64,000 nt of DNA from Egibacteraceae bacterium (GTDB taxonomy: Bacteria; Actinomycetota; Nitriliruptoria; Euzebyales; Egibacteraceae). The DNA lies in assembly GCA_030446775.1 (NCBI GenBank), contig JAUJMQ010000003.1, forward strand, positions 62,001-126,000. The letters run 5' to 3'. Of the stretch, positions 2,391 through 9,683 are shown piece by piece. The notes beneath the pieces were generated by a model. It was not told the origin of the DNA. It made no database searches and saw nothing but the letters and a program-made list of their open reading frames with translations. Both the position numbers and the translations under genes were made by a program. Position 1 is the stretch's first letter, and the number at the start of each line of letters is the position of its first letter.

Positions 2391-4688
2391 GTGACGCCGG
2401 CCGAGGCGACGCCCGGAGGTGGTCGCGACACGTTCCCGCGGCAGTACGCGCGGACCCGGCGGTTCACGCTCGGCCAGCCGCGGGCGTTCGTGATCGCACC
2501 TGACGACGCCCGGGTCGCGTTCCTGCGGACGGCCGGCGGCTCGGACCCGGTGGGTTGCCTGTGGGTCGTGGACCTGCCGGGCGGGGTCGAGCGGTGCGTC
2601 GCCGACCCGCGTCAGCTCGGGGCCGACGACGAGGACCTGCCGCCCGAGGAGCGCGCGCGCCGGGAGCGCGTCCGGGAGTCGGGTGGCGGCATCGTGGCCT
2701 ACGCCACCGACCGGGCCGTGCGGACCGCGGTGTTCGCCCTCGGCGCCCACGCGTTCGTCGCCGACCTCGACGGGGGCACGGTCCGTCCCCTGGCGGTGGC
2801 GGGGCCGGTCGTCGACCCCCGCCCGGATCCGCTCGGCATCCGCGTCGCCTACGTGCGGGACCGCGGGCTCCGCGTCACCGAGCTCGGCGGCAGCGGCGAG
2901 CAGCGGCTGGTCGGCGATGACGACCCGGACGTCACCTGGGGGCTCGCGGAGTTCATCGCCGCCGAGGAGATGGGCCGCGAACGCGGCTTCTGGTGGTCAC
3001 CTGAGGGCACCCGGCTCGCCGTCGCGCGGGTCGACGAGACGTCGGTGGTGCGATGGCACCTCAGCGACCCGGCGGACCCCGCCACCGCGCCGGTCGTCGT
3101 GGCCTACCCGGCGGCCGGCACCCCGAACGCGGCGGTGTCCCTGCACGTCGTCGACCTCGGCGGTCACACCGTGCGGGTGGCGTGGGACTCGGACGCGCTG
3201 CCCTACCTCGTCGACGTGCTCTGGTCAGCCGACGGCCCGCTGACCGCGGTCGTGCAGTCCCGTGACCAGCGCACCGTCCAGGTGCTGGCCGTCGATCCGG
3301 ACACCGGCGCGACCCGGGTCGTCGCCGAGCAGCGGCAGCCCTCCTGGGTGGAGCTCGTCGCCGGCGTCCCCGGCTGGCTGCCCGGCGGGCGTCTCCTGAC
3401 GACCATCGACGACCGCGACACACGCCGGCTGGCGGTGGACGGCCGTCCCGTCACGCCGGTCGGCCTGCAGGTCCGGCGGGTCGTCGCCAGCGACAACGGG
3501 ATCGTGACGTTCACCGCCTCCGGCGCAGACCCGACCGCCGTCGGGGTGTGGCGCGTCGACCCCGACGGCGGTGAGCCCTCGTCGCTGGCGGGCCTCGACG
3601 GTGTCGCCGACGCCGCCGTCGCCGGCGGTGTGGCGGTGACCGTGACCCGCAGCCTCGACGAGCACGGTGCCCGTGTGCGGGTGCGCCATCGGGTGGGTGA
3701 GCTGGAGCTGGCCTCGCTGGCCGAGACACCGCTACTGTCCGCGCGCGTCGAGATGCTGACGCTCGGCGAGCGGGCGCTGCGGGCCGCGCTGCTGCTGCCG
3801 GCCGACCATGACCCGGCGGGGGGCCCCCTGCCGCTGCTGCTGGACCCCTACGGCGGCCCGCACGCGCAGCGCGTGGTGCGCAGCGCCGACGCCCACCTGT
3901 CGTCGCAGTGGTTCGCCGACGCCGGCTTCGCGGTCCTCGTCGTCGACGGCCGCGGCAGCCCCGGACGGGGTCCCGCCTGGGAGCGCACGCTCGCCGGCGA
4001 CCTGGCCACGGCCCCCCTCGACGACCAGGTCGACGCGCTGCACGCCCTCGCCGCGGCCCGGCCCGGCCTGCTCGACCTCGACCGGGTCGCGATCCGCGGC
4101 TGGTCGTTCGGCGGCTACCTCGCCGCCCTCGCCGTCCTGCGGCGCCCCGACGTCTTCGCCGCGGCGGTCGCCGGCGCGCCGGTCACCGACTGGGCGCTGT
4201 ACGACACTCACTACACCGAGCGCTACCTGGGGCTGCCCGACCGCGACCCCGCGGCCTACCGGCGCAGCTCCCTGCTCGACGGGGCCGCCTCGCTGGACCG
4301 GCCCCTGCTGCTGATCCACGGGCTCGCCGACGACAACGTCGTCGTCGCCCACACGCTGCGGCTGTCGCGGGCGCTGACCGAGGCGGGCCGTCCCCACACC
4401 GTCCTCCCGCTGTCGGGCGTCACCCACATGACGCCGCAGGAGTCGGGCGCCGAGACCCTGCTGCTGCTCCACCTGGACTTTCTGCGCCGCGCGCTCGGCG
4501 CCCCGGGACCGCCGGAACCGCACGCCGCAGCCCATGCGCCGCGTACGGCGGGGTTCACCCTCGTGAATGAGCCCGGCGCACCGGCGCCGGCGCGGGTTAG
4601 TGCGGCGCCTCGGGCCGTCGCGACCCCCGAGGGGAGCTGTCACCGGCGGCTTCCAGCTGGGCGCGGCGCTGCTCGGCGTGGCCCTTGA
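2391..4688 (+). CDS. S9B-type dipeptidyl-peptidase / prolyl oligopeptidase family serine peptidase
   Basis: 765 residues from GTG 2391. The N-terminal two thirds matches the DPP-IV N-terminal beta-propeller. The C-terminal alpha/beta-hydrolase domain carries a full catalytic triad: Ser572 (GWSFGGY), Asp647 (HGLADDN) and His679 (VTHMT). A conserved DPYGGPHAQ segment precedes the catalytic domain. Family members release N-terminal dipeptides, usually X-Pro. There is no signal peptide, so a cytoplasmic peptide-recycling role is likely. The last roughly 30 residues overlap the 3' end of the convergent gene at 4597 and look non-conserved, so the true C-terminus may be shorter. Confidence 0.9.
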   Translation: MTPAEATPGGGRDTFPRQYARTRRFTLGQPRAFVIAPDDARVAFLRTAGGSDPVGCLWVVDLPGGVERCVADPRQLGADDEDLPPEERARRERVRESGGGIVAYATDRAVRTAVFALGAHAFVADLDGGTVRPLAVAGPVVDPRPDPLGIRVAYVRDRGLRVTELGGSGEQRLVGDDDPDVTWGLAEFIAAEEMGRERGFWWSPEGTRLAVARVDETSVVRWHLSDPADPATAPVVVAYPAAGTPNAAVSLHVVDLGGHTVRVAWDSDALPYLVDVLWSADGPLTAVVQSRDQRTVQVLAVDPDTGATRVVAEQRQPSWVELVAGVPGWLPGGRLLTTIDDRDTRRLAVDGRPVTPVGLQVRRVVASDNGIVTFTASGADPTAVGVWRVDPDGGEPSSLAGLDGVADAAVAGGVAVTVTRSLDEHGARVRVRHRVGELELASLAETPLLSARVEMLTLGERALRAALLLPADHDPAGGPLPLLLDPYGGPHAQRVVRSADAHLSSQWFADAGFAVLVVDGRGSPGRGPAWERTLAGDLATAPLDDQVDALHALAAARPGLLDLDRVAIRGWSFGGYLAALAVLRRPDVFAAAVAGAPVTDWALYDTHYTERYLGLPDRDPAAYRRSSLLDGAASLDRPLLLIHGLADDNVVVAHTLRLSRALTEAGRPHTVLPLSGVTHMTPQESGAETLLLLHLDFLRRALGAPGPPEPHAAAHAPRTAGFTLVNEPGAPAPARVSAAPRAVATPEGSCHRRLPAGRGAARRGP

Positions 4689-5394
4689 GGTCCTCCTTGG
4701 AGGTGTTCGCGGCCTCGCTCTTGATGGCCGGGGCCCTCTGCTCGACGCGGGACAGCGCCTGCTGCCACTTCTGCTGCATCGGCTGGATGCCGCCGCCGCC
4801 GATCGCGATGATCGCCGACCCGGCGATGACGGCCAGGAAGGCGTAGAACAGCCCGTTGACGATCGCCGGGGCGATCTCGATCTGGTTGAGCGCGGCGAAC
4901 ACGCCCACGGCCAGGATGGCCACCGAGGCGACCGTGCCCAGCGTCTTGCCGTAGGACAGCCCGCCGAACGAGGCGACGACGAGCTCGCGGACCCCGCCGC
5001 GGCGATCGCGGCGGCGACGACGAGGATGATGATCGCCACGATGAGCTTGGGCAGAAAGGCGATGACGGCGAAGATCAGCTCGGAGATGAAGTTGTCGCCG
5101 AACACCCCGAACGCCATCTGCAGCACGAACAGGAACAGCGCGTAGAACACGATCTTGGACAGGATGCTGCTGGCGTCGTACTGCGACTTCGCCAGCGCCT
5201 TCTTGACGCCGCCGCGCTCCACCGCGCGGTCGAAGCCGACCTGCTCGAGGACCTTGTCGACGACGCCGGCGACGATCTTGGCGACGATGTAGCCGATGAT
5301 CAGGATCGCCAGGAAGGCCAGGAACGTCGGCAGGAACTCCCGCGGCGGTGGTCAGCGCGTTGCGTAGCGGGTTGGTGTCGATCTGAGCAAGCAT
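4597..5394 (-). CDS. conserved TM-helix (MscS-related) membrane protein, frameshifted
   Basis: Reads from ATG 5394 (MLAQIDTNPLRNALTTAA) through at least two frame changes, near 5340 and 4985. Conceptual repair gives a hydrophobic protein with repeated TM segments (for example ISELIFAVIAFLPKLIVAII and ILAVGVFAALNQIEIAPAIV) and the pattern FGGLSYGKTLGTVA. This matches the conserved TM-helix repeat family (PF05552) found in small mechanosensitive-channel-like proteins. The C-terminal tail is charged and helical. It is the third gene of a minus-strand operon with the OB-like membrane protein and the PRC/DUF2382 protein. The breaks could be sequencing errors or real decay. Confidence 0.7.
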   Translation of the reverse strand: MLAQIDTNPLRNALTTAAGVPADVPGLPGDPDHRLHRRQDRRRRRRQGPRAGRLRPRGGARRRQEGAGEVAVRRQQHPVQDRVLRAVPVRAADGVRGVRRQLHLRADLRRHRLSAQAHRGDHHPRRRRRDRRGGVRELVVASFGGLSYGKTLGTVASVAILAVGVFAALNQIEIAPAIVNGLFYAFLAVIAGSAIIAIGGGGIQPMQQKWQQALSRVEQRAPAIKSEAANTSKEDLKGHAEQRRAQLEAAGDSSPRGSRRPEAPH

Positions 5395-5479
5395 GAGTTG
5401 TCGTCCTTTTCTGCGTTCTGGGAGAGTGCGAGCTGGAGCCGGGCTGGGCTGCCTTGGCGACCCAGCTCCCCGGGTGCGG

Positions 5480-6174
5480 CTATGCCTCCTGGTCGAGTTG
5501 CAACTCGTCGACCTCGATGTGACCGCCCTGCTGTCGCAGCATGTCGGCGCCCTCCTCGGCCGTGACGCCCAGTTCCCCCTCGAGGTCTGACGGGTTCTGT
5601 GTGACCGTGCCCTCGAAGCTGACCGTCTGGCCGGCCTGGACCTGGAACGGGACCTTCGCCACCGGTCTTGGCCGACGAAGACGCGGTCGGACTCGCTGTT
5701 GCCGACCCAGAAGCCCTCGTCGCTGACGACCGACTCCACCACCACCTGGGTGCCGGTGGCCGCCTGGCCGGCTGTGCCCGTGATCTGTGCCGCCGCTCCT
5801 GGCAGCACGTCGTCGCCGGCGACCGCAACCGTCCCTGCCTGTCGGGTCGCACCCGACCCGCCGCCGACGCGCCGGAGTCGCTGGCCTCGCTGGCGCCGGC
5901 CGCCACACCGGAGTCCTCGCCCTCACTGGCATCGGCGGTCGCACCGGAGTCCGGGTCGGCGTCAGCCTGGCACTGCTCGCCGCGACGTCGTCGGTCGCGA
6001 TCCCGGCGGCACCGGCCGCGTCGGGGTTCCCGCCACGAGCGCACGCGAAGAAGAGCACGCCCACCAGCAGGGCCAACCAGCAGTAGCAGCCACCACGGAA
6101 CGCCCGTGCGCCTGCGTCTTTCGCCGCCGGGGGCGTAGCTACCGGTCGACCGGCTTCGATCCTGATGACGACAT
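5480..6174 (-). CDS. membrane-anchored protein with OB-like domain, frameshifted
   Basis: ATG 6174 follows the upstream gene's stop by ten bases, and the stop overlaps a GAGG ribosome site. Conceptual repair of several frame changes gives a short polar N-terminus, one membrane segment (VPWWLLLLV then ALLVGVLFFACA), an Ala/Ser/Glu/Asp low-complexity linker and a C-terminal beta-rich domain. That domain contains ESVVSDEGFWVGNSESDRVF, then VQAGQTVSFEGTVTQNPSDL, then a helix ending HIEVDELQL. The same domain recurs at the end of the divergent sigma-factor gene (7239-8491). I infer an exported sensor or effector domain; function is unknown. Confidence 0.6.
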
Positions 6175-6184
6175 GCCGATGTCC

Positions 6185-7045
6185 TCAGTTGTACGGCGGA
6201 CGGCGCGGCTCGGCGCGCGTCCGCCGTTGGATGGATGGCCGTCGGCGCCGCGGGGCGGCTGGTGTCGGTGCGCTCCGTTGCCGCGACCGACTCGTCGGCG
6301 TCGACCTCGATGCGCCTGGTGACCTCCTCGTCGACTCGGACCTGCTCGGTGACCGTGTCCGTGTCCACGCGCACGCGCTCCACGGGGACGGCCTTTCTGG
6401 ACCACGGGCCGTTCCTCGGTGAGCGTGACCTCGTGCTCCTCGGGAGAACGCCGCCGCCGTGGCGGCGTCGACGTTGGCATCGGTGATCGGCTCGCGCTCG
6501 ATGCGGACCTCCTCACGCGTGACCGGCACCGTCTCGGTGACGTGCTCGGTGTCGACGTACTTGCGCAGCCGCACCCGGCCGGCCTCGGTCCGCTCGGTGC
6601 CGACACGCAGCTGCCCTCCGACCGCGTCATCGCGTCGTCGGCGGTCGGGCCGCTCGTGTCGTGGCCGACCGTGTCGTAGTCGCCACCGCTGGTCGGGGTG
6701 CCCTGGGGCAGGCCGCTGTCGGAACGCGCCTCGGAGTAGTCCATCCCGTAGTGGCGGTAGAGCTCGCCCTCCTCGACCGGGGACAGCTCGTGTTCCGCCT
6801 CGATGGTGGGAGCGTCTTTCACCTGCGCCTTGTCGACCGGCACCCGAAGCTCGTCGCCGGTCACCTGCGCGCCCTGCAGGCGGCACGAACGTCGACTTGG
6901 TCCCGGAACATGCCGGTGTTGACCAGTGCCCACTGGCCTGAGCCGAGTCGCGGTCGAGGTAGATCTCCTCGACCTTGTCGATTCTCTCGCCGTTCGCGTC
7001 GATCATCTTGGCGCCGCGAAGCTGGTCGTAGGAGCCGGCTTGCAT
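6185..7045 (-). CDS. PRC-barrel / DUF2382 (YsnF-type) stress protein, frameshifted
   Basis: Start ATG 7045 with an AAAGGA ribosome site. The N-terminus (MQAGSYDQLRGAKMIDANGE, then IDKVEEIYLDRD) is a PRC-barrel domain. After frame changes near 6900, 6600, 6450 and 6390 comes the DUF2382 signature: RKYVDTEHVTETVPVTREEV and later HEVTLTEERPVVQK and VRVDTDTVTEQVRVDEEVTR. The two-domain layout matches stress-induced YsnF/AvaK-type proteins common in desiccation- and osmotic-stress regulons. First gene of an operon with the OB-like membrane protein and the channel-like protein, divergent from a sigma factor. The count of breaks suggests base-level errors rather than several independent mutations. 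Confidence 0.75.
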   Translation of the reverse strand: MQAGSYDQLRGAKMIDANGERIDKVEEIYLDRDSAQASGHWSTPACSGTKSTFVPPAGRAGDRRRASGAGRQGAGERRSHHRGGTRAVPGRGGRALPPLRDGLLRGAFRQRPAPGHPDQRWRLRHGRPRHERPDRRRRDDAVGGQLRVGTERTEAGRVRLRKYVDTEHVTETVPVTREEVRIEREPITDANVDAATAAAFSRGARGHAHRGTARGPERPSPWSACAWTRTRSPSRSESTRRSPGASRSTPTSRSRQRSAPTPAAPRRRRPSIQRRTRAEPRRPPYN

Positions 7046-7238
7046 GCAGACGTCCTTTCGAAGGGGTGTGCGGGCGAAGGCCGGCCGCGCGGTTGCGGGC
7101 GCGGGCAGCGGCGTGCCTGGGGCCTTCAGAGGGGAGAACGCCGTCGGGGCCGCGGCATTACGCACGGCCGCGATTTTTCTCGGCACGGATGCGGCACCAA
7201 AGCCGCTGTGCGCAGCGGGGGAGCCAGAGGGGAGGACG
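7046..7238. promoter_or_regulatory. divergent promoter region between stress operon and ECF sigma gene
   Basis: A 193-bp gap separates two divergently oriented genes. It holds an AT-richer tract around 7165-7185 (GCGATTTTTCTC) in otherwise extremely G+C-rich sequence. No consensus -35/-10 pair is convincing on either strand. Autoregulation by the adjacent ECF sigma factor is an inference from gene order. Confidence 0.4.
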
Positions 7239-8491
7239 GTGGTGGCGCGTTCGGCGGGGGCCGGGCACGCCGACGTGGCCGAGTCGGCGCCGGTGATCCG
7301 GCGGGTGGTCGCCGCGCGCGTCGGACCCGGAGACGGTCGGTGACCTCGTGCAGGAGACCTTCGCGCGGCTCACGGTGCGCTCCCGGCTCAGCGACGAGGC
7401 CGTCATCCCTTACGCCGTCGTCACCGCTCGCAACCTCGTCCGGTCGATGGTACGCTCCCAGGGCACGGCGCAGCGTCACCTCCATCAGCTCGTCGACCTG
7501 CGCGAACCCTCGTCACCCGCGGAGGAGGCGCTGCGCCGCGAGGAGGCGGAGGCGCGTGAGCGCCGCGCTGGAGACGCTGCGACCTCGGGACCAGACACGT
7601 TGATCGCCCACGAGATCGAGGGCGTGGACACCGCCGCGCTGGCGGACAGCCTGGGCTCGACTCCCGGGGCGGTGGCGGTCTCGATGGCGCGCACCCGCTC
7701 CAAGCTGCGCGTGGCGTACCTGCTGGCGCTGCACCGCACCGAGCTGCCGACGCCCCGCTGCCGACTTCCTGGTGCTGCTGTCGCTGTCGGCCGGCGACCG
7801 CCGCCGGCAGCTGGCGGTCTGGACGCCGGCGCGCACTCGCTGGAGTGCGCGACCTGCGCCGAGCTCAGCCAGTTGCTGCTGCGCGGGCGCGTGCCGGCGG
7901 TCGCCGTCCTGCTGCCCGCCGATGGTGGCTCGCCGGCCAGTTCCGCGCCTGGGTGCGCGACCGGCCCTGTCCAGAGCTCGGTGGCGGCATCGGGCGTCGC
8001 CGCGGCTGCCGTGGTGACACGCCGCGGTCGTCCTGGGTGGTGGATGTCCGGCGCCCGAGGCGGGGAGCGGCGCGCCGGCGGCGGCGGGCCAACCTGCTCC
8101 TGTCCCGGACCGCAAGCCAGCGTCGCCGGCGCAGGCCGGTCCCCTGCGCATCGACGACGCGGCGTCCCGCGCTCGCTGGCCCGGGCGGGCTGGCTGAGCA
8201 CATCGGCCGGCGGGCGGTCGCCGAGGAGGTCAGCGTGCAGTCGGTGGTCGCCGACGAGGCCTTCTGGGATCGGCAGACGACGCCTGGGGTGCTGGTGCGC
8301 CTGCGTCCGAGCGGCGAGTCGTCTCAGCGGGTGCGGGCGGGGCAGCGCGTCGACTTCACCGCGAGGGTGGTCGGCAACGGCGACGACCTGGCCGCGCGGC
8401 TGGGGGTGGACGCCGACCAGGGCGCCGGCCTGCTCGGCGAGCAGGGGCGCACCTGGAGGCCGCCGAGGTGCGGGTAACCCGGCGCCGGTGA
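7239..8491 (+). CDS. ECF sigma factor apparently fused to zinc anti-sigma-like, TM and OB-like domains (frameshifted)
   Basis: GTG 7239 (or 7242) lies just behind a GAGGGGAGG ribosome site. Repairing breaks near 7317, 7555, 7598, 7765 and 7815, plus more before 8100, yields sigma region 2 (VGDLVQETFARLTVRSRLSD, then VVTARNLVRSMVRSQ). Region 4 follows (LETLRPRDQT, then IEGVDTAALADSLGSTPGAV and VSMARTRSKLR). Next come an H-x3-C-x2-C motif (AHSLECATCAELSQ) like zinc anti-sigma domains, a likely TM segment near 7990-8040, a Pro/Ala-rich linker and an OB-like domain paralogous to the one in the gene ending at 5480. I see no stop/start pair between the sigma and zinc parts, but the breaks make a two-gene arrangement possible. 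Confidence 0.6.
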
Positions 8492-8959: not shown

Positions 8960-9654
8960 ATGCGACGCCGACGCCGCGCTCGCGGCTTCCGCGATCGTGC
9001 CGGAGGCGACGCACGACGTCGGACGGCGAATGGCCGGATCGCTGGGAGGCGACGCACGACGCCGAGAACCCGCTACGACCTCCGATCACGACGGGCTGGC
9101 TAACCGCGGCGAGTTTCCGCAACCACGCCGACCCGCGCGACGAGGACTCTGACAACGACGGTGTGGACGACCGCGACGAGGAGGTGCGTGTTCGACACCG
9201 AGCCCGACGACCGCGACGACGACAACGACGGCGTGCGTGATGGTGACGAGGACTTCGACCACGACGGGGTCGAGAACGAAGACGAGGACGACCTGCTCGA
9301 GGGCTGCCGCGCCGACGACGACGACCACGACTCTGACGGCGTCGACGACGAGGACGAGAACGAGGTCCGCCACACGGCCGGGGACTTCGACGCCGACGAC
9401 GACGGGGTCGCTGACCGCCGCGACGGCGACGACGACAACGACGGCCGGAACGACGTGCGCGACGCCGACGGCAACGCTGACGGCTTCGAGGACGGCGAAG
9501 ACGACTTCGACGGCGACGGTGTCGACAACGAAGACGAGGACGACGACGCCGACGACAGGTGCGACATCGACGATGAGGACGACGACGACACCGCGAGGAC
9601 GAGGACGCCGAAGATCTGGACGGCGACGGCGAGGACGACGACAGCGACGACTAA
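8960..9654 (+). CDS. acidic thrombospondin type-3-like calcium-binding repeat protein, frameshifted
   Basis: The start is uncertain. The recognisable part opens with SDGEWPDRWEATHDAENP and DHDGLANRGEF, the usual beginning of bacterial TSP3/EF-like proteins. It continues through many DxDxDG repeats (DSDNDGVDDRDEE, DRDDDNDGVRDGDEDFDHDG, FDGDGVDNEDEDDDADD). After frame changes near 9075, 9115, 9190 and 9590 the last frame ends DLDGDGEDDDSDD and a TAA at 9652-9654. Such proteins bind calcium and are normally secreted; no clear signal peptide can be recovered. A strong hairpin follows the stop. Confidence 0.6.
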
Positions 9655-9683
9655 TCCGCGCCAGCGCCGCGTAGGACACGAAC

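Follow-up and report, generated by a model that had tools for sequence, protein, structure and literature searches.

Can a sigma factor, its inhibitor, a membrane anchor, and an outer sensor be encoded as one polypeptide, and what, if so, would such a protein control? The question is raised by a locus within a 64,000-nucleotide stretch of DNA (here, 'the window') from an Egibacteraceae bacterium, i.e., part of contig G000:C22 of a MAG which, going by its relatives and gene content, is of actinobacterial type, and which is 2.4 Mb in size and 59.8% complete. A first-pass annotation of the window had described two genes, found on opposite strands, as possessing homologous C-terminal domains, with one of those domains preceded by sigma and anti-sigma parts. 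The peptides which it quoted are all present in the window and at the positions given. The homology is seen as well, at 42% identity over 52 residues in a search of the window's own genome, with a single profile matching both copies (E of 1.7e-28 for the plus-strand copy; the minus-strand copy is matched in two halves, at 1.2e-18 and 1.0e-15). The best reading of the locus is that of a membrane-tethered sigma factor which would control a small, envelope-stress operon.

The plus-strand gene extends from a GTG start at 7239 to a TGA at 8489-8491 (7239..8491), and is frame-broken. A frame-mended reading of this gene was used solely for searching. Its sigma-70 region 2 part (7239..7554) matches Pfam Sigma70_r2 at 5.9e-6 and its region 4 part (7565..7764) matches Sigma70_r4_2 at 7e-4, the latter being below cut-off. 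There follows, as had been claimed, a zinc anti-sigma (ZAS) motif (7759..7857). This has its first Cys codon at 7759-7761 and its H-x3-C-x2-C portion at 7834-7857 (His 7834-7836, Cys 7846-7848, and Cys 7855-7857), such that the motif reads C-x24-H-x3-C-x2-C across two frame changes, with all four ligand codons kept. A juxtamembrane or membrane helix and a Pro-Ala-rich linker come next (7929..8189), where the window's frame is uncertain, and then the C-terminal domain (8184..8488; alignment A4), which is uncatalogued and is here described as 'OB-like'. Further downstream, also on the plus strand (9120-9655), is a long, Asp/Glu-rich protein of DxDxDG repeats which, as judged by eye, has the appearance of a thrombospondin type-3-like, calcium-binding protein.

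Head-to-head with this gene is a minus-strand operon. Its first gene (6230..7045) encodes a PRC-barrel plus DUF2382 protein (DUF2382 at E 2.4e-25 and PRC at 0.0015, mended reading). Its second (5480..6168) encodes a stand-alone membrane protein which consists of an N-terminal TM helix (6002-6101), an acidic Ser/Ala linker, and the other OB-like domain (5483-5835). Its third (4600..5394) encodes an MscS-type conserved TM-helix protein (PF05552; E 1.6e-16). Between the fused gene and this operon, at 7134..7167, lies a promoter-like element, bipartite and conserved, which reads GTGCGTAATG-N12-CGGCGTT on the minus strand, i.e., towards the PRC-DUF2382 gene.

Within the window by itself, the sigma and OB-like parts are not connected in any one frame, and this is because of single-base breaks. 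That is not the case among relatives. Nine other actinobacterial genomes, spanning several genera and families, encode the whole of the fused protein as one open frame, and for that reason the fusion is real in the family. Searching with the mended reading found single-frame homologues within the window's family and phylum (G077, 466 aa; G020, 520; and G013, 463), with a sigma-ZAS profile search then bringing in G105, G141, G249, G268, G229, and G219. The order in these intact proteins is ECF regions 2 and 4, the ZAS motif, one membrane helix, a linker that is Pro/Ala/Thr-rich in most members, and the C-terminal domain. Thus nine intact homologues bear out the single-polypeptide sigma, ZAS, membrane, and external-domain protein which the first-pass annotation had proposed, and all of them run unbroken through the stretch from region 4 to the zinc motif, where a stop and new start might have separated two genes.

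Details of these intact homologues agree with what is seen in the window. Sigma70_r2 and Sigma70_r4_2 are both over their Pfam cut-offs. Regions 2 and 4 are present without regions 1 or 3, as defines an ECF factor, and matches to the NCBIfam sigma70-ECF model are 60-73 bits versus a cut-off of 42.9. Directly after region 4, C-x22-H-x3-C-x2-C is invariant among the intact relatives (12 of 12), which places it within the general ZAS pattern of C/H-x(22-26)-H-x3-C-x2-C. A strongly hydrophobic segment then follows in all nine OB-type proteins, though this is weak or absent in the RsbT-type proteins considered below. As scored over 297 genomes, the family obtains 190-352 bits versus no more than 58 for every other sigma factor, and four other fused sigma-ZAS proteins, whose own ECF group is unlabelled, fall apart from the family at 100/100 tree support. 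The OB-type members do not resolve as a clade within the family tree. A scan of genome contigs returned only distant ECFs, from other phyla, and the G141 protein, when compared with plasmids by tblastn, matched nothing. G219 possesses also a second, degenerate ZAS-TM-OB copy (L089, 7815-8597), which carries a stop and of which the sigma part is not intact.

What, then, of the window's own copy? The first-pass annotation spoke of 'one frame correction', which understates the damage: about nine frame changes are needed for the plus-strand gene to be read through. This number might be viewed as pointing to an artefact, that is, to separate genes that only seem to be joined, by read-through of sequencing errors. 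The same domain order exists, however, as one open frame in nine other genomes, long contigs included (G141, G219), which refutes that idea for the family and leaves it exceedingly improbable overall. Somewhat less improbable, while still unlikely, is that the family is real but that the window's copy is a decayed pseudogene, for which one can point to the many frame breaks as well as to the existence, in G219, of the degenerate copy just described. Against decay, all four genes of 4600-8491 contain single-base frame breaks, i.e., the adjacent PRC-DUF2382, OB, and MscS-TM genes are similarly broken, and both residues and promoter element have been kept. As neighboring genes share similar one-base breaks, indel errors in assembly are more likely than gene decay.

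The nature of the outer domain is less readily described. It corresponds to no Pfam or NCBIfam entry, its matches to OB-type families are sub-threshold (WCOB, 0.0036; RsgA_N, 0.05), and the predicted structure of the window's domain part, which is based on the window's frames only, is of low confidence (mean pLDDT of 44) and not usable as a fold model. For these reasons 'OB-like' serves here as a working name, with the matches hinting weakly at an OB fold. A PDB profile search with the domain was unconvincing, its best match being 0.0038 over 29 residues of carbonic anhydrase, and none of 16 domain sequences contains a carbohydrate-binding family. A free OB protein is found beside the fusion only in the window and in G229, in both instances within the divergent operon. 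Other genomes, too, possess stand-alone OB proteins (G012, G016, G022, G026, and G177), and one in G328 is found near PRC-DUF2382. In G328 (L093, 2280-3179), a zinc-ribbon membrane protein with a diverged OB-like C-terminus, i.e., a different sensor-like head on the OB-like domain, is encoded divergently to a PRC-DUF2382 gene and a 4-TM gene. The idea that the free protein arose from the fused domain by recent duplication at this locus finds no support, as the two window copies are not supported sisters in a tree.

The gene neighborhood is conserved beyond the window. A PRC-DUF2382 gene, an MscS-TM gene, or both are found head-to-head with the fused gene at seven of ten loci (the window, G141, G249, G229, G268, G013, and G020), so that the co-occurrence which the first-pass annotation had suggested be looked for does exist, with the free membrane copy of the domain in the operon at two of the ten. 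At G219 an MscS-TM gene is located approximately 5 kb from the fused gene, and at G077 and G105 the divergent neighbor is instead a GAF-ANTAR gene. The neighbor families match Pfam PF09557, PF05239, and PF05552, with PRC below cut-off in the mended window but over it in G141. These families are scarce in these genomes, at 0-3 matches per genome for DUF2382 and 0-5 for PF05552, and because of this scarcity the repeated adjacency is not chance; a rough estimate, based on DUF2382 neighbors alone, is less than 1e-6. Around these loci, a recurrent envelope-stress gene set is seen, at L062 (4057-8479), L059 (1973-5011), L134 (7452-8623), and L135 (5670-7091), consisting of 4-TM DUF3792-like, DUF2382-only, apolipoprotein-like membrane, and actinobacterial holin-X (PF07332) proteins along with, possibly, a ferritin-like protein.

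G300 provides a 'split' version of the fusion. There (L090, 548-4188) the sigma gene is a plain ECF one, and the gene directly after it encodes the ZAS-TM-OB anti-sigma factor as a protein of its own, with MscS-TM and PRC-DUF2382 genes coming next. The parts of the fusion are here laid out in the canonical manner, as two genes. As this separate ZAS factor ends in the same domain, and does so beside both sigma factor and effectors, the comparison supports the ZAS-OB part of the fused protein as a putative anti-sigma factor and sensor acting in cis.

The bipartite element is found upstream of the sigma gene at ten of ten fused loci, and with constant spacing, versus at none of three sister, RsbT-type loci. 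Its consensus, allowing for variation, is nACGCC-N13-CATTACGCAC. Read forward, as nACGCC-N13-CATTACGC, it faces the sigma gene at 99-294 bases before the sigma domain; its reverse complement is GTGCGTAATG-N12-nGGCGTt. In leave-one-out analysis the true site ranks first at all ten loci and at eight lies above all of 200 shuffles, with the weaker loci being G229 (3 of 200) and G219 (7 of 200). As the element may be found inside or outside of open frames, and as frame varies between genomes, this is a signal at the level of DNA rather than of peptide. Indeed, a conserved N-terminal peptide (HYAR in some frames) was considered and rejected, with the element outside the sigma frame in G141, G249, G105, G229, and G219 and read in another frame in G268.

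How widely might this element be used? Scanning ten genomes with one mismatch allowed gave no genome-wide excess versus a reversed control. With ranking by PWM in G141, a 95% complete genome, three sites nonetheless stand out, the sigma locus among them. One of the additional sites is upstream of a DUF3792-like TM / DUF2382 pair, while the other is upstream of a TMapoA gene that is followed by a possibly ferritin-like gene (so named by reading its sequence); genes at both belong to the set which adjoins the sigma gene elsewhere. At all three sites it is the reverse complement that faces a stress-type gene, and it is for this reason that the element can be read as a putative ECF promoter of the divergent operon, which supports the earlier suggestion that the fused protein may regulate the separate envelope protein. 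The window's own genome, at 60% complete, has a high-scoring element at the sigma locus only, so that a wider regulon is suggested by the one genome, G141.

Putting these parts together, the following is, in our judgment, a likely account of the whole. The ZAS helices would hold the adjoining sigma part inactive in cis, a supposition that the two-gene form in G300 supports, with the single membrane helix placing linker and OB-like domain on the outside. Upon perception of an envelope signal by that outer domain, the sigma part would be freed, most likely via regulated proteolysis, as has been proposed for ECF52 and as seen with IutY, or instead via zinc loss. Free sigma factor could then transcribe the divergent PRC-DUF2382, OB protein, and MscS-TM operon from its GTGCGTAATG...GGCGTT promoter, with the products of all three genes presumably working at the envelope. 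The OB-like domain in its free, membrane-bound form would probably compete for ligand or partner, and in so doing damp or 'tune' the response; the exported domain may also, as the first-pass annotation supposed, sense this free copy. What is observed here is that the parts are fused, that the ZAS motif and hydrophobic helix are present, that the head-to-head layout is conserved, and that the DNA element exists. Cis inhibition, topology, proteolytic release, recognition of promoter by sigma factor, and feedback, i.e., mechanism that goes beyond anatomy, neighborhood, and element, are inferred or are taken from the known or proposed behavior of fused ECF groups (PMC8999054, PMC5826349).

Two of these steps can be envisaged differently. 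The element could serve some other regulator as its operator, or be the sigma gene's forward promoter, with the fused sigma factor not recognizing it. Read forward, the site is two-box-like and does face the sigma gene, and its link with the sigma factor is in silico only. Fixed spacing fits an ECF promoter, however, and RsbT-type sigma loci lack the element; the additional G141 sites, furthermore, both face stress-type genes, and since one of them comes just after a ribA-like, co-directional frame has ended, a gene start is faced there by the reverse reading alone. We consider this alternative to be unlikely, if by no means negligible, and the fused sigma factor probably does recognize the element. 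Of much the same low probability is that there is neither tethering nor release, with the sigma factor working in place by way of a reversible conformational switch (zinc, redox, or ligand) and without proteolysis, as has been argued for ECF41-type extensions. ZAS domains can respond to redox, which suits such a switch, as too does the existence of ECF groups that are under conformational control (PMC8999054). A cytoplasmic redox switch, though, would need neither membrane anchor nor external domain, and proteolysis is the route that has been proposed for the closest known groups (PMC8999054).

The same sigma-ZAS core is found with a different C-terminus in G002 (L037, 2280-5342), G004 (L038, 965-4003), and G145 (L061, 7920-10675). 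Here the core is followed by an RsbT/SpoIIAB-type HATPase (PF13581, 1.2e-13, with PDB matches to anti-sigma F), and the three proteins form one branch within the family (support 98/96). Downstream of these fusions are RsbR-like and RsbS-like genes along with a gene possessing an RsbU_N domain. Since RsbT of Bacillus binds to RsbU at the N-terminal domain of the latter (PMC12143880), each of the three known RsbT partners has a gene downstream here. No report of RsbT fused to an ECF sigma factor was found in the open-access literature searched. It is possible that the sigma-RsbT protein is a sigma factor that is directly held by a stressosome. With rather more doubt than belief, the sigma-ZAS core may be viewed as an exchangeable 'chassis', one that could carry either an external sensor with free-copy feedback or an RsbT-like kinase, through which the sigma factor would itself sit upon an RsbR/RsbS stressosome and be let go from it, bypassing RsbU-RsbV-RsbW.

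A little-studied class of self-anti-sigma proteins thereby gains an external domain that is new to it, a target operon that is conserved, and a promoter that can be tested. As the regulon appears to be very small, and its promoter element strong, one could reconstruct the entire signal path in a laboratory host. The family supplies, as well, a route to the function of the mostly unexplained PRC-DUF2382 and MscS-TM-helix stress proteins, while the sister sigma-RsbT fusions offer a direct way of asking if the usual phosphatase cascade is needed at all for a sigma factor to be held by a stressosome.

With regard to known systems, ECF48, ECF52 (SCO4117 of Streptomyces coelicolor), and ECF53 are actinobacterial sigma factors which are fused to a ZAS domain and membrane helix, and they have in common with the present family a C-terminal ZAS, membrane helix, linker, and external domain (PMC8999054, PMC5826349). 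Activation through release of the sigma part has been proposed for the ECF52 type (PMC8999054, PMC5826349). Of ECF52 features, the zinc finger, TM helix, and proline-rich extension are all present here but the C-terminal carbohydrate-binding module is absent, and it is given this absence from its domain sequences that the family is not filed as ECF52. Other fused sigma-ZAS proteins recovered from the phylum, ECF group unlabelled, are separated by the 190-352 versus at most 58 bits noted above. IutY of Pseudomonas putida (ECF243) likewise combines sigma factor and membrane anti-sigma factor in one polypeptide, and is activated by regulated proteolysis (PMC8999054), but it serves in Gram-negative, iron-starvation surface signaling, and the ZAS-OB arrangement is not described for it. 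Canonical pairs of ECF sigma factor and ZAS membrane anti-sigma factor employ the same ZAS motif and membrane logic, with G300 being such a pair that possesses the same external domain, though as two genes rather than as one chain. The stressosome module (RsbR, RsbS, RsbT, and RsbU) shares parts with the operon of the sister branch, though not with the window. The principle of fusion, that is, is already known from ECF48, ECF52, and ECF53, and what is new in the present family is its uncatalogued, OB-like outer domain, its conserved, divergent PRC-DUF2382/MscS-TM operon, and its promoter element.
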